A stretch of 64,000 nucleotides of DNA from Myxococcales bacterium (GTDB taxonomy: Bacteria > Myxococcota_A > Polyangia > Polyangiales > Houyiibacteriaceae): the NCBI GenBank assembly GCA_029863605.1, contig JAOTVB010000010.1, positions 62,001 to 126,000 of the forward strand, written 5' to 3'. Both the position numbers and the translations under genes were made by a program. The notes beneath the pieces were generated by a model. That model was not told where the DNA came from and searched no databases. It saw nothing but the letters and a program-made list of their open reading frames with translations. Position 1 is the stretch's first letter, and every line of letters starts with the position of its first letter. This document shows, in pieces, positions 11,510-30,832 of the stretch.

Positions 11510-11896
11510 ATGTATACCTTTGTGTCGATCCTCTACATCTTTGTGTGCTTGTTCTTGATCCTGGTCGTGCTGCTGCAGTCCGGTAAGGGGGGCGGCCTGG
11601 GATCCGCGTTCGGCGGAGGCACGAGCCAACAGATCTTTGGGGGCGCAGGAGCAGGCAATCTGCTGACACGCTTGACCGCGGCATTCGCATTTACCTTCAT
11701 GGCACTTTCGGTCTGGCTTGCGTTCTTGTCATCGAGCGGCGACCAGGCCCTCGAGCGGGCAGTTCGAGAGCAAGCCGCCGCCCAGGAAGCGGCTGAGGAA
11801 GCCGAACCGACGGACGAGCCCGAGGCCGCCCCCGAAGAGGTCCAGGTCGAGGTTGAAGAGACCGAGGCCGAGGCGACGACGCCTGAATCGGAATAG
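11510..11896 (+). CDS. secG: Protein translocase subunit SecG
   Basis: A 128-aa inner-membrane protein of the SecYEG channel. It shows the SecG pattern: first membrane helix (about 3-23), then VLLQSGKGGGLGSAFGGG, then a second helix (about 52-74). SecG proteins are usually 75-110 aa. Here an acidic tail of about 50 residues (many Glu, Ala and Pro) extends beyond the second helix, as in other high-GC proteobacteria. secG directly after tpiA is a common arrangement. It ends 3 bp from the convergent pseudokinase gene, leaving no room for a separate terminator. Confidence 0.93.
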   Translation: MYTFVSILYIFVCLFLILVVLLQSGKGGGLGSAFGGGTSQQIFGGAGAGNLLTRLTAAFAFTFMALSVWLAFLSSSGDQALERAVREQAAAQEAAEEAEPTDEPEAAPEEVQVEVEETEAEATTPESE

Positions 11897-11899
11897 ACG

Positions 11900-13093
11900 T
11901 CAGATCCCGGCGATGGCGACTTGGTGTGCTCGCTCGCGCCAATCACGGCTTTCGTCCAAGCGATCGGCTTGTGCCAGGAGCTCGGCTAGAAGCGCGCACA
12001 GCCTGCTGAAGCAGTCGTCGCGCCCGACTCCGTCGGCTAGATCCAGACCGGCGATCACGGCCGGAGCCCCCCGCTCGCCCACATGCGCCCGCACACACAG
12101 CTCGCCAAATCGTTCGTAAAGCACCAGCGTTTCAGCGACATCTTCGAACCGATCGAGGTTTTGAGCCTCGAGCGCCGCCTCGAGATAGTCGATCGCTGCG
12201 TAGAGCGCCCCGCAAGCCTCGAGCGCTCCGGCAGTTGAGACGAGCGTTGCTATCGGGTCACCGGCACGCTCGCTGCCACCGACGCTGGCACTGTAACTGG
12301 CGCTGCCACTGATCAGCCGCGCCAGATCCCCTGCCCCCACCCACTCCCCCCGTTCGTGTAAGGCGGTACGCAGGTCGTCGCGGAGCTCACCGGCGGTGGG
12401 GCGGTTTTCTGGGTAGCGTTCGAGCGCACGTGACAACGCACGGTCAATCTCGATCGGGTGATCGCTCGGAATGGCCTCTTGTACGAGGAGCGCCAACGAG
12501 TACACATCGCTTCTGCCGTCCACGGGCTCGCCGCCGAGCTGCTCGGGGGACCGGTGCCGCGCTTCGTGCTCGGCGAGCTCTTGTTGGCCCGGCCACCTCG
12601 TCCCGAAACCGGTTAGCTTTACCCCCCCGGCCGCGCTCAACAGAATTCGATGAGGCGACACACCGCGATGGACGATTCCGAGCAGACGTTGGCTCGCATC
12701 CCTGCGGGCGTGGGCATAGTCGAGCGCGTTTGCGACTTGGATGGCGATGTGGACGATGATCGGCCAGGGGAGAGGTCGCTGCGCGAGAAGCGAAGCGAGA
12801 CTCGTTCCCTCGACGTATTCGGTCGTTACGAAGCACTTGCCGCCCTCGACCCCAACGTCCAGCACCTGTGCGATGTTGGCATGCGACAGGAACGCAGACC
12901 GGTTCGCCTCGGCGATCATGTTCTCATGCGACGTGTTTTCAGAATCTGCCTCGCCCCCGATTCGCCAAACCACGACGTCTTTCTCGAATCCACACACCCC
13001 GATCGACTTCGCTTTGTAGGCCTCCGCCGACCCACGACCACCGAGCGGGCCGAGGAGTCGATATCTCCCAAGACGAAGGTTCGACGCCGACAC
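11900..13093 (-). CDS. Hanks-type pseudokinase
   Basis: A 397-aa protein kinase fold whose catalytic residues are gone. With GTG 13093 as start, the fold begins LGRYRLLGPLGG. The beta-3 Lys position is W43 (VVVWRI where VAVKRI is usual), HRD is HRG (142-144), the following Asn position is R149, and DFG is GFG (162-164). The structural parts stay: the SPEQ of the activation segment and the DGRSDVYSLALLV helix. The C-terminal 130 residues form a helical, TPR-like region (ALEACGALYAAIDYLEAALE). It probably binds partners or regulates rather than phosphorylates. The frame is open upstream, but that part lies in the transporter gene and does not look like protein. Confidence 0.8.
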   Translation of the reverse strand: MSASNLRLGRYRLLGPLGGRGSAEAYKAKSIGVCGFEKDVVVWRIGGEADSENTSHENMIAEANRSAFLSHANIAQVLDVGVEGGKCFVTTEYVEGTSLASLLAQRPLPWPIIVHIAIQVANALDYAHARRDASQRLLGIVHRGVSPHRILLSAAGGVKLTGFGTRWPGQQELAEHEARHRSPEQLGGEPVDGRSDVYSLALLVQEAIPSDHPIEIDRALSRALERYPENRPTAGELRDDLRTALHERGEWVGAGDLARLISGSASYSASVGGSERAGDPIATLVSTAGALEACGALYAAIDYLEAALEAQNLDRFEDVAETLVLYERFGELCVRAHVGERGAPAVIAGLDLADGVGRDDCFSRLCALLAELLAQADRLDESRDWRERAHQVAIAGI

Positions 13094-13107: not shown

Positions 13108-13944
13108 TCAGGCGTTCCGGGGCGTCCCGTTTTCGACAGGGGTCCTTCCCGGCTGCCCGCGGGTCCCGTGTACGGGGTGGATCCGGAGATAACGCCCTAG
13201 GTGTTTGACGCCGATGTAGAAGGGCAGCGTGTCGACGAGCGCGACGGTTAGCTTGAAGGTGTACCCGGCGGTGATGAAGGTGACCAACTGCGGCCACAGA
13301 GACTCCGCAGGATTGATCGGAAGTGCCCTGGCGAAGAAGTGCGTAATCAGAATCACCGCGATGGTGTCGATGAGCTGGCTGATCAACGTCGAGCCGTTGT
13401 TCCGCAGCCACAGATGGCGGCCATCGGTGAGTCGCTTCCAGAAGTGGAATAGCTGGACATCGATGAACTGGGCCGCCAGGTAGGCGATCATCGAGGCGGT
13501 GACCGCGCCAAAAGCCAAGCGGCGAACTTCGAAGAACACGCCCTCGGTGGGCGCCTCAGCGGGCTCGAAGCCGGGTAATGCGCCGCCGATCCACAGAATC
13601 AACATGACCCACAGATTGAGGGCCAGTCCAACCCAGACCACTTGGTTGGCCCGGTGGCGACCGAAGAGCTCCGACAGAAAGTCGGTGCACAGAAATGTGA
13701 TCGGATAGGGCAACACCCCGACCGCGAGCGGCATCGGAATCGTGAAATCGGTTCCCGGGATTTGGAAGCTCAGATCGATGAAGCGCGTGATGCCGAGGAT
13801 GTTGAGCATCGCCAGCGTTCCGAGGAAGAAGCCCGAGAAAACGAGAAAGACGGTCTGCCGCCGCTCGTGAAGGGTTGCGGCGTCGAGCTCGGGAAGGCCT
13901 TCGAACGCGTGCTGCTCGGAGGGAAGCGAGTCCGCCCCGTTCAC
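13108..13944 (-). CDS. Queuosine precursor transporter (YhhQ/VUT family)
   Basis: A membrane protein of about 278 aa with about seven helices, matching the vitamin-uptake-like VUT/YhhQ family: FLVFSGFFLGTLAMLNILGI, then PYPITFLCTDFLSELFGRHRANQVVWVG, and the end ALVDTLPFYIGVKHLGRYL. YhhQ imports the queuosine precursors preQ0/preQ1 for tRNA modification. GTG 13944 is preferred because it gives a 4-bp GTGA overlap with the upstream TPR gene and is preceded by GGAAAG; a start at 13989 would overlap that gene by 49 bp. The polar 40-residue N-terminus is not conserved in the family as I know it. Confidence 0.82.
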   Translation of the reverse strand: MNGADSLPSEQHAFEGLPELDAATLHERRQTVFLVFSGFFLGTLAMLNILGITRFIDLSFQIPGTDFTIPMPLAVGVLPYPITFLCTDFLSELFGRHRANQVVWVGLALNLWVMLILWIGGALPGFEPAEAPTEGVFFEVRRLAFGAVTASMIAYLAAQFIDVQLFHFWKRLTDGRHLWLRNNGSTLISQLIDTIAVILITHFFARALPINPAESLWPQLVTFITAGYTFKLTVALVDTLPFYIGVKHLGRYLRIHPVHGTRGQPGRTPVENGTPRNA

Positions 13945-15287
13945 CGGTCGGCTTTCCGGCGAAGCGCTTTTCGCTCGATGCCGCGCCAAGCCTGGTGTTC
14001 TTGCCCGGCCCGCTTGGTTTCGCCGAGCTCTTCGTAGAGGCTCGGCAGCGAGGCCGCCAATGCGCCGCTTCCAACCGAGGCCTCCCAGGCATCCCGGAAC
14101 GAAGCGAGTTCCACCGCAGCCGGCACGATGATCTTCCCACGCGCGAACTCCGACACCGACCCGTGCTCGTGCGCCACCCCCGCCTCACATGCGGCGCAGT
14201 GATGCTCGAGTCGCTCCTGTTGCACGAAAACCCTCGTTCCATCCGGCAGCGCTTGCTCGAGCCCGACAAGCGCACCCTTTTCCTTCTCGATCGCCGCGAA
14301 GGGCCATCTTCGCTCATCGCCGTGCCGAAGGATCTCTAAGAGCGGGAATACCGGCACCGGACCGCAATCCGAGATGCGGTGCTCGGCGACCGGCGCGCCG
14401 TCCCACAACACCAAGTCCCCGTAATCGATCGGCGCGTCGCGGAAGGTTGGTGACTGAACCACTCCGTGACACGGACTGAGCGGCGCGACCCACACCAGCT
14501 CGAACCCGACCCCGGTGGGAAGCTTGGTGGTGGCGTCGACCGGTGACGGCCGCGAGAGCACCCGGACCAACAGCGGTGGAAGCCCGTCGACCAAGGGCAT
14601 CTTCGTCTTGGGGTCCGCTTGGGCCGGCATCCCGAGCTCCTCCCAGCTCCGGCGCGCAACCTCGCCGGAGCCGAGGCCAGTGGCGCAGATCGCGAGGTTC
14701 CAAAGGGCGGGGCGTCTAGCCGCCTTGTGGTCGAGCGCCATCTGGTTCGCCCTGAGTCCCTCTTCGAAGCGACCGCGCCATTTGTGCAATAGTCCCAAGT
14801 CGTACCACCACGAACCTCGCTCCCCGTCGAGCTCGAGCGCCCGGTTGAAGGCTTGTTGGGCATCGGCGTCGCGGCCGGGGCCGCACAGACGCAACGCATT
14901 CCCGAGGCTCGCGTGCAGATGGCCCGCGATGGCTGGGTCCCGCCGTTCCGAGTGATCGAGCGCGTCCAAGGCGCGTCGAAGCGCGTCGGACGCCCATCGG
15001 GCAGGCGTATCTTCGCTCACGACCGGTTCGTCCATCCCCCTGCGTGCTGCCTGCTCGATCAGGAGGGCGGCAATGGCCAAAGTCGTCTTCCAGTCTTCGG
15101 GCCACCCTTCGGCCAGCTCCCGGAGTACTTCTCGGTGCGGCGTCCCGTTTCCGAGCTCCCGGATCAGCTCGATCGCGAGCTCGGCGAGTGTTCGATCGGA
15201 TTTGAGCTGACCCTTCCGCCCCAAAAGTGCCCGCCAGGTTGCTTCGAGCTCGTCCTCGGGGAGCGGCGTTGCTTCAGTGGGTCCCAT
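13941..15287 (-). CDS. Tetratricopeptide-repeat protein
   Basis: A 448-aa cytoplasmic protein with no signal peptide. Residues about 125-230 hold three TPR-like helix pairs (HLHASLGNALRL, QAFNRALELDG, WWYDLGLLHKWRGRFEEGL, ALWNLAICATGLG). The C-terminal half (about 240-420) is a different domain with mixed strands, including TGVGFELVWVAPLSP, DYGDLVLWDGAPV and a CAACEAGVAHEHG segment that could bind metal. It overlaps the queuosine-precursor transporter by 4 bp, so the two are translationally coupled. Function is not known. It is divergent from the PP2C phosphatase. Confidence 0.75.
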   Translation of the reverse strand: MGPTEATPLPEDELEATWRALLGRKGQLKSDRTLAELAIELIRELGNGTPHREVLRELAEGWPEDWKTTLAIAALLIEQAARRGMDEPVVSEDTPARWASDALRRALDALDHSERRDPAIAGHLHASLGNALRLCGPGRDADAQQAFNRALELDGERGSWWYDLGLLHKWRGRFEEGLRANQMALDHKAARRPALWNLAICATGLGSGEVARRSWEELGMPAQADPKTKMPLVDGLPPLLVRVLSRPSPVDATTKLPTGVGFELVWVAPLSPCHGVVQSPTFRDAPIDYGDLVLWDGAPVAEHRISDCGPVPVFPLLEILRHGDERRWPFAAIEKEKGALVGLEQALPDGTRVFVQQERLEHHCAACEAGVAHEHGSVSEFARGKIIVPAAVELASFRDAWEASVGSGALAASLPSLYEELGETKRAGQEHQAWRGIERKALRRKADR

Positions 15288-15439
15288 CGGGCGCCAAGCT
15301 TAGCAGTCCGTCCACCCTTGTCAGCGATGAGGCGCGCGGAGCCCTGGATTTTGGCGCCGTTCTTGCTGGTCTGCGAAGTTTTTCGCTAACCTGGGGAGAC
15401 GGGGCCGGTCAGCGGCCGTCACTGCTGAATGAGGACGAG

Positions 15440-16195
15440 TTGCAATACCACAGTGCGGGACTGACCGACGTAGGCCAACGCCGAAAGCTCAATGAGGACG
15501 CGTTCTTAGTCGATGACGTTTTGGGGCTCTACGTCGTCGCCGACGGAATGGGTGGGCACGCGGCAGGCGAGATTGCGAGCCAGGAAGCCGTCGACACCGT
15601 GCATGGCATGGTGAGTCGGGGTCACGCCGCCCTCGAGCGGGTCGCACAAGGTGATACTTCCGAAGCGTCGCTTCGCGCGGCCATCCGCGTCGTCGAGAGC
15701 GCTGTCCAGGCCGCGACCTACATGGTTTTCGGTTTGGCGCAGCACGATCCCGACCAGCAGGGCATGGGGACCACGGTCTCGGTGCTCGCGATGTGCGGCG
15801 ACTATGGCATCACCGCGCAGGTCGGCGACAGTCGGATCTATCTCATCCGCGGCCATCGAGCGAATTCACTCACCGAAGACCACACGTTGGTCGCGTGGCA
15901 GCTCAAGCAAGGGATCATCACCGAGTCCGAAGCGGCCCGATCGCCACACCGAAATGTGATCACGCGGGCGGTCGGCAGCCGGGAGTATGTCCAAGTCGAC
16001 ACCGGGTTCTTCGAGGTGCAGCCGTCGGATTGCTTTCTGCTGTGCTCGGACGGGCTGCATGGCTACCTCCAAGAGGACGAGATTCCAGAGATCATCGACA
16101 TGGGCCCCAAGGGCGCAACTCAACGGTTTGTCCACATCGCCAACTCACGTGGCGGCCGCGACAACATCACCGCCGTCGTCGTCAGCGTGCACTGA
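15440..16195 (+). CDS. PP2C-family Ser/Thr protein phosphatase
   Basis: A 251-aa metal-dependent phosphatase. Family motifs are in order: AGLTDVGQRRKLNEDAF at the N-terminus, LYVVADGMGGHAAGE with the metal-binding Asp, GMGTTVSVL, QVGDSRIYLIR, LCSDGLHGYL and GGRDNITAVVV. The TTG at 15440 is chosen because GAGGACGAG precedes it at the right distance and the family's conserved start follows within six residues; no ATG or GTG is available near it. It dephosphorylates Ser/Thr residues and may counter the Hanks kinases, one of which (29519-30832) has intact catalytic residues. Confidence 0.9.
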   Translation: MQYHSAGLTDVGQRRKLNEDAFLVDDVLGLYVVADGMGGHAAGEIASQEAVDTVHGMVSRGHAALERVAQGDTSEASLRAAIRVVESAVQAATYMVFGLAQHDPDQQGMGTTVSVLAMCGDYGITAQVGDSRIYLIRGHRANSLTEDHTLVAWQLKQGIITESEAARSPHRNVITRAVGSREYVQVDTGFFEVQPSDCFLLCSDGLHGYLQEDEIPEIIDMGPKGATQRFVHIANSRGGRDNITAVVVSVH

Positions 16196-29518: not shown

Positions 29519-30832
29519 TTATTTCCAGGGATCGAGGATCGGTCCGTCGCCATGCCCCCGCGACTGCGAGGGCTTCGGCCCGACGCGCGGCTTGCGCTTG
29601 GCGCGCTCCCGGTTTGGGCGCGCCGGAGATGCCGCTTCGGGGTGGGTGTCGGCCTCGTCGGCGTCGGTGATCTCGGGCGGCTGCTCGCTCGCCGAAGGCT
29701 CCGGTACCGGTGGATCGACCACGGCGTCCGCCGCCGTTCCCAACTCGCGCGGCTCCCCGGTTGAATCGAAGACGCCCCCGAACGCGGCCAGACCGAGGAT
29801 GGACGCCACGATGAGCCCCAATACCCCGAGGAAGATCGCCGTCTTGCGCGCTTGCTGGCGCATCGACCCGACTTCCAGCTTGAGCGTGATCGCCTCGGAG
29901 CCGAAAGGCTCTTGCATGGCCTGCAGTCGACCCAAAGCCGCTTCCATCTCGTGCATCGTTTGGTAGCGGTGCGCCGGCTTTTTCTCGAGGGATCGCATGA
30001 TGATGCGCTCGAGCTCCGTGGACAACTTGGAAACCCGCACACTCGGGGCGACCGGGTCCTCGTACATATGCTTGGTGAGAATGCCCATCATCGTGTCCGC
30101 GTCGTGCGGGACGTGCCCGGTCACCATCTCGTAAAGAAGCACCCCAAGCGCGTAGACGTCTGTCCGGTGATCGATGTTGTCTCCCGCACACTGTTCGGGC
30201 GACATGTAGTGCGGCGTCCCGAGAACCTCGCCGTCCCTCGTCAGGCGCTGTGGGCGATTGGCGACCTTGGCGATTCCGAAGTCGAGCACTTTGACGAAGT
30301 CCTGCTCTTCGCCACGGCGGATCAAGAATACGTTTTCCGGCTTCAGGTCCCGATGCACGATGCCCGCGTCGTGGGCTGCGGCGAGGGCGTGGCAAATCTG
30401 ACGGGCGATGTGTATCGCTCGGCCTTCGGGGAGTCGTTGCACGGCGTCGATGGTGTCGATGAGGTCGAGGCCCTCGAGACACTCCATCACGAAATAGGTC
30501 GAGCCGTCGGGGAGGGTACCGAAGTCGATGATGTCGACGATGTGCTCGTTGCCGATGTTCGACGCGCTTTGCGCTTCTCGCCGGAACCGAGCGAGCACTT
30601 CCTCATCCTTGGTGTTCGCGCTCCGGAGGACCTTGATCGCGAGGGTCTTGTCGAGCTCGGTGTGGGTCACTCGATACACCAAGCCCATCCCGCCCTCGCC
30701 GAGCAGCGCTTCGACACGGTAGCGGCGGTCGATCACGGTGCCGATCAGCGCATCGGGCGTTCGCGCGACGCCGGAGTCTCGACCGCCGACCTCGGGATCC
30801 TCGTCGTCGATCCGTCTCGCGCTACCGGGCAT
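29519..30832 (-). CDS. Hanks-type Ser/Thr protein kinase, membrane-anchored
   Basis: A 437-aa kinase with all catalytic residues: glycine loop LGEGGMGLVY (44-53), K67 in LAIKVL, HRDLKPEN with D162, and DFG at 184-186, then GTPHYMSPEQ and DVYALGVLLYEM. After the kinase domain (about 38-310) come a membrane helix near 330-355 (AIFLGVLGLIVASILGLAAF) and a polar Pro/Arg-rich tail of about 80 residues. The kinase domain precedes the helix, so it should face the cytoplasm with the tail outside. It lies 50 bp downstream of ppdK and upstream of the two lipoproteins on the same strand. It is the catalytically intact counterpart of the pseudokinase at 11900-13093. Confidence 0.93.
   Translation of the reverse strand: MPGSARRIDDEDPEVGGRDSGVARTPDALIGTVIDRRYRVEALLGEGGMGLVYRVTHTELDKTLAIKVLRSANTKDEEVLARFRREAQSASNIGNEHIVDIIDFGTLPDGSTYFVMECLEGLDLIDTIDAVQRLPEGRAIHIARQICHALAAAHDAGIVHRDLKPENVFLIRRGEEQDFVKVLDFGIAKVANRPQRLTRDGEVLGTPHYMSPEQCAGDNIDHRTDVYALGVLLYEMVTGHVPHDADTMMGILTKHMYEDPVAPSVRVSKLSTELERIIMRSLEKKPAHRYQTMHEMEAALGRLQAMQEPFGSEAITLKLEVGSMRQQARKTAIFLGVLGLIVASILGLAAFGGVFDSTGEPRELGTAADAVVDPPVPEPSASEQPPEITDADEADTHPEAASPARPNRERAKRKPRVGPKPSQSRGHGDGPILDPWK

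Follow-up and report, generated by a model that had tools for sequence, protein, structure and literature searches.

The locus and its genes

The window analyzed here is a 64,000-nucleotide stretch of contig C36 in the 4.2-Mb genome of a Myxococcales bacterium (G000). Immediately beside secG it carries an open reading frame of 397 amino acids, which is open throughout without any internal stop. A Pfam search of the protein gave Pkinase at residues 48-215 and a weak TPR match; no ATPase domain was found. The features of the locus are as follows.

11510-11896, + strand: secG, the convergent neighbor that defines the slot (Pfam SecG, 76 bits; synteny)
11900-13093, - strand: pseudokinase gene, 397 aa, GTG start (Pfam Pkinase, 60 bits)
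11909-12256, - strand: TPR-like helical tail (residues 280-395), whose homologous stretch in a large syntenic kinase is residues ~960-1072
12308-13069, - strand: kinase-fold domain without helix alphaG, residues 9-262 (AlphaFold2 pLDDT 88; PDB matches, Z 23-25)
12452-12475, - strand: junction where alphaG and its flanks (about 30 aa) are absent compared with active kinases (alignment and model)
12602-12610, - strand: G162-F163-G164 in place of DFG (Gly162 in 8/8 complete proteins)
12647-12649, - strand: catalytic-loop Asn replaced by R149 (8/8 complete proteins have Arg)
12662-12664, - strand: HRD Asp replaced by G144 (orthologues have G or R; alignments)
12965-12967, - strand: beta3 Lys replaced by W43 (orthologues have W or R; two alignments)
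13108-13989, - strand: queuosine precursor transporter (Vut_1/TIGR00697), upstream and in the same direction (domain match and synteny)
13941-15287, - strand: TPR protein, a conserved neighbor (Pfam; synteny)
15227-16195, + strand: Stp1/IreP-like PP2C phosphatase, whose true start is probably nearer 15400 (domain match; kept where the pseudokinase is lost)

Two of the neighbors have features of their own. The C-terminal tail of SecG (11768-11893) is long, acidic and rich in Ala and Glu, and it varies strongly within the genus. The TPR protein at 13941-15287, which stands beside the transporter and PP2C genes across much of the order, has a C-terminal region (HHCAACEAG..HEHG) without a Pfam or NCBIfam name.

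A kinase fold with a replaced active site

The initial annotation described a Hanks-type pseudokinase in which the beta3 Lys is replaced by Trp43, HRD by HRG, the catalytic-loop Asn by Arg149 and DFG by GFG. All of these replacements were borne out by alignment with relatives. The beta3 strand reads VVVW43RI, compared with VVVLKRI or VIKRI in relatives, and the catalytic loop has H142-R-G144 in place of HRD. The structural parts of the domain were also said to be kept. This held for the alphaC Glu (E62), the APE-type Pro-Glu pair (P183-E184), the alphaF Asp (D196) and the alphaI Arg (R231). It did not hold for alphaG and part of the activation segment, which are lost, or for the glycine loop, which is degraded according to both the alignment and the model. 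Judging from its sequence, the protein should be incapable of transferring phosphate from Mg-ATP.

The AlphaFold2 model had a mean pLDDT of 87.9. A PDB search with this model returned the kinases PknI, PknA, PknB and Stk1 at Z scores of 23-25, and the eukaryotic MST and PAK kinases were also among the matches. Thus, the 397-aa protein has a protein kinase fold. The helical repeat region expected after the kinase domain was found as well: six helices were modeled across residues 280-395, and larger kinases have a homologous TPR region.

Orthologues within the genus

A scan of genome contigs with the single protein alone returned no relatives; an alignment-based scan found them. Seven other complete orthologues (in G017, G014, G012, G008, G001, G010 and G015; 79 to 36% identity) occupy the same slot convergent with secG, and G018 has a partial one in this slot at a contig edge. 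All belong to one genus, that of Myxococcales bacterium MAG SG8_38, for which the orthologue is present in G001:C28 and in record LJTN01000054.1. In most cases, the gene for the queuosine precursor transporter lies upstream; in G014, none was found there.

The seven further proteins carry the same replacements that the initial annotation had proposed to look for. Among the eight complete proteins, Trp (five, including the window protein) or Arg (three) stands for the beta3 Lys, and Gly or, in most, Arg for the HRD Asp (the motif reads HRG, HRR or HGR); the catalytic Asn is always replaced by Arg and the DFG Asp by Gly. A bacterial Hanks-type pseudokinase lacks at least one of the beta3 Lys, the HRD Asp and the DFG Asp; here all three are replaced in 8/8. 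The alphaC Glu, His142, Pro183-Glu184, Asp196 and Arg231 are invariant among the eight, which implied that the structural core of the C-lobe is conserved together with the dead active site. Arg149 and Gly162 are likewise invariant despite an overall identity of about 40%. The host genome has 43 kinase matches, nearly all with intact catalytic residues. Given this, and as the same replacements recur in eight orthologous proteins, they are beyond what chance would give. None of the eight reading frames contains a stop. The TPR tail is gone in G001, G010 and G015.

Probable origin from a large kinase in the same slot

In sister genera and in other families of the order, the slot is occupied by a kinase of ~1350 aa (loci L116, L124, L127, L128 and L134). 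Its domains are Pkinase, AAA_16/nSTAND NTPase and TPR, and a cyclase-like region between the kinase and the ATPase was read from the sequence and from a TIGR03903 match. Every syntenic large kinase that was aligned retains VIK/VVK, HRD, Asn and DFG. In several genomes, this kinase adjoins secG, and the genes for the queuosine precursor transporter, the TPR protein, PP2C and rpsA lie on its opposite side.

Two observations connect the window gene with these kinases. Both are found in the same slot, between secG and the transporter/TPR/PP2C group, and they share a homologous C-terminal TPR block. The C-terminal 126 aa of the window protein match essentially only the C-terminal part of the ~1350-aa kinases (E to 1e-15), and outside the genus nearly every genome with a match has a single one. 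The large kinases are also among the best matches to the kinase domain (about 43-47% over ~200 aa). In a kinase-domain tree, the nearest sequence by path outside the pseudokinase clade was a large kinase, but the branching did not single out the exact sister. Therefore, the orthology rests on synteny and the shared tail.

Relative to the large kinase, the window protein consists of the kinase domain followed by the stretch equivalent to residues ~960-1072. An internal segment of about 650 aa and a C-terminal one of about 270 aa are missing; within the kinase domain, the protein also lacks about 30 aa at alphaG and its flanks and a portion of the activation segment. The intact catalytic residues, the ATPase, the cyclase-like region and the longer TPR array of the large kinase are all absent. 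A second copy of the tail was not found elsewhere in the host genome, so the large kinase has not simply moved. By these sequence comparisons, the window gene is a remnant of a ~1350-aa multidomain Hanks kinase.

The existence of large intact orthologues in relatives might suggest an artifact of sequencing or assembly, or else a pseudogene that arose recently in a single strain; the initial annotation had named orthologues with intact residues as the finding that would point this way. Such orthologues do exist, but in other genera and families of the order, so the catalytic loss is neither recent nor an error. The same losses are shared by eight complete proteins from separate genomes with intact reading frames, which refutes this reading and leaves it with hardly any probability.

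Reduction of this gene has thus occurred more than once. In G033, a 3.3-Mb genome from a different family of this order, the slot is taken by a stand-alone kinase of ~310 aa (L268, G033:C27, 5124-6032) with all catalytic residues and alphaG intact. There, the gene shrank without loss of catalysis.

Repeated losses and selective constraint

In a tree of eight neighboring proteins, genomes with the large kinase were outgroups, and the pseudokinase mapped to the base of the genus. Presence and absence on this tree required at least three changes, which we interpret as losses, one each in G003, the G005/G006/G013 group and G007/G016. No kinase remnants were recognizable by eye in a six-frame reading of the gaps in the genomes without the gene. 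The repeated loss indicates that the pseudokinase gene is not essential. In the same tree, L072 (G009:C105), the secG contig of a genome assigned to the same genus, had a branch of 1.4 changes per site, far above the others. This is probably due to contamination or misplacement.

We estimated dN/dS at 0.246 (95% 0.18-0.33) for G000/G017, both of which carry the catalytic losses, and at 0.22 for G012/G008. The TPR block gave 0.17-0.36. Neighboring genes had values of 0.03-0.18, compared with about 0.25 for the pseudokinase, which thus evolves faster; the active kinase domain of the large kinases, at 0.05-0.11 in two pairs, was also below it. In a neutral simulation, 6.7 stops were expected per lineage (P = 0.0015 for no stop), and the expected identity was 39%, compared with 79% observed. 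Together with the repeated losses, these results imply that constraint persisted after catalysis was lost, but that it is loose and the gene is dispensable.

A slowly dying gene would also show some constraint, if what is left merely prevents misfolding of a protein whose function has gone. The three or more losses, the further truncation in three lineages, the evolution faster than that of the neighbors and the small genomes of this genus relative to most large-kinase relatives all agree with this explanation. However, dN/dS is 0.2-0.25 with an upper bound of 0.33 for G000/G017, the eight complete reading frames are free of stops, Arg149 and Gly162 do not vary at ~40% overall identity, and the TPR tail is itself under constraint. 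We therefore consider slow death of the gene unlikely. The suggestion of a coherent loss rather than decay is supported by eight complete orthologous proteins and a post-loss dN/dS of about 0.25, and the loss is both old and selected.

To our knowledge, the origin and function of bacterial pseudokinases are mostly unknown. The history of this one is unusually readable: an active giant kinase became a small dead protein that is selected in many species and lost in others. A single locus fixed by synteny holds the intact ~1350-aa kinase, the intact 310-aa kinase of G033, the dead kinase with a TPR tail, the dead domain alone, and absence. As these stages stand side by side, the role of a kinase after catalysis can be tested by comparison and by swapping versions.

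Possible functions

It seems fairly probable to us that the remnant of the large kinase is now a small protein-binding adaptor without catalysis; the scaffold role proposed in the initial annotation is plausible on the same sequence grounds. The ancestor would have been a multidomain Hanks kinase of ~1350 aa in the slot beside secG. In the ancestor of the genus, it would have lost its central sensor/ATPase region, a large part of its TPR array, its catalysis, alphaG and some of the activation segment. The kinase fold, with its Arg-containing former active site, and the TPR tail might then grip a partner that was also held by the ancestral kinase. The losses within a shared slot, the intact large kinases in that slot, the common tail, the species tree, the dN/dS values, the simulation and the folded model support this interpretation. 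The three or more losses of the gene, its faster evolution, the tail loss in three orthologues, the failure of both suggested partners to track it and that of the kinase tree to separate a sister count against it. The adaptor role and the lack of activity are what we infer from this combined evidence.

No candidate partner was found when the two suggested ones were checked by co-occurrence across the genus genomes. Most of these genomes, some without the pseudokinase among them, have an orthologue (58-81% identity) of the intact kinase at 29519-30832, and the PP2C gene persists in genomes that lost it. As both occur without the pseudokinase, neither tracks it. The neighboring TPR protein was rejected for the same reason. 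A part in anti-phage defense was also rejected: the window protein's PADLOC matches fall on the kinase domain and are common to many kinases, and, in contrast to a defense island, the locus lies in conserved core synteny.

The former active site might instead bind ATP or another phosphate ligand through its Arg residues without metal, and so control adaptor binding. A precedent for Arg-rich sites is reported in PMC12599244, where such metal-free binding is proposed in the case of DLHK pseudokinases and described in that of ULK4. In 8/8, the two metal-binding residues are replaced, with Arg for Asn and Gly for Asp; most also have Arg at the HRD Asp position, and three have it at the beta3 Lys position. 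However, a bulky Trp occupies the beta3 position in five of the eight, the window protein included, and the glycine loop is degraded. By analogy, such a switch is conceivable but rather improbable. Slightly more doubtful still is the fuller scenario, in which a metal-free, Arg-lined site would bind a phosphate ligand and switch a kinase-fold/TPR adaptor whose ancestor, a catalytic STAND-type kinase, lost catalysis, alphaG and its regulatory ATPase together.

Comparison with known pseudokinase families

Seven families of bacterial pseudokinases have been described, ActPs2, ActPs3 and DYD among them (PMC12599244); the detailed comparison here covered features of ActPs1, CP1, DLHK and GLW. The genus-level pseudokinase reported here is new, but bacterial pseudokinases are known as a kind, and CP1, DLHK and GLW each fail one tested defining feature. 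CP1 resembles the window family in its variable motif loss, and its link to a COG3899 ATPase recalls the ATPase fusion of the ancestral large kinase (PMC12599244). However, the fused COG3899-type ATPase is absent from the 397-aa protein, whose active relatives are intact kinases. The P. aeruginosa example of DLHK shares GFG for DFG and an Arg in the active site with the window protein, but DLHK keeps the HRD Asp and the catalytic Asn (PMC12599244), where the window protein has Gly144 and Arg149. The GLW family has GLW in place of HRD, whereas HRG, HRR or HGR is found here.

ActPs1 shows the same triple catalytic replacement, and alphaG is absent in about 60% of its members, as it is here (PMC12599244). 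Its members are mainly actinobacterial and allied to Act1, and many have a C-terminal PQQ domain (PMC12599244), whereas the window protein is myxobacterial, with a TPR tail and no PQQ (Pfam gives the weak TPR match alone). EssB/YukC, which functions through protein binding, has all motifs degraded and the glycine and activation loops reduced, as in the window protein (PMC12599244). It is, however, a membrane component of type VII secretion, and we found no sequence or synteny link to it. The large kinases match the cyclase-ATPase-TPR part of the TOMM system kinase/cyclase fusion (TIGR03903) at 184-220 bits; these scores, and the 54 bits of the window protein over the kinase stretch alone, are far below the curated cut-off of 705.75.

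Other kinase-like proteins of G000 also miss at least one catalytic residue, namely those at C40:44146-44829, C28:610601-611011 and C45:99060-99338, and a further atypical one at C26:7740-8186. Thus, G000 carries several pseudokinases.
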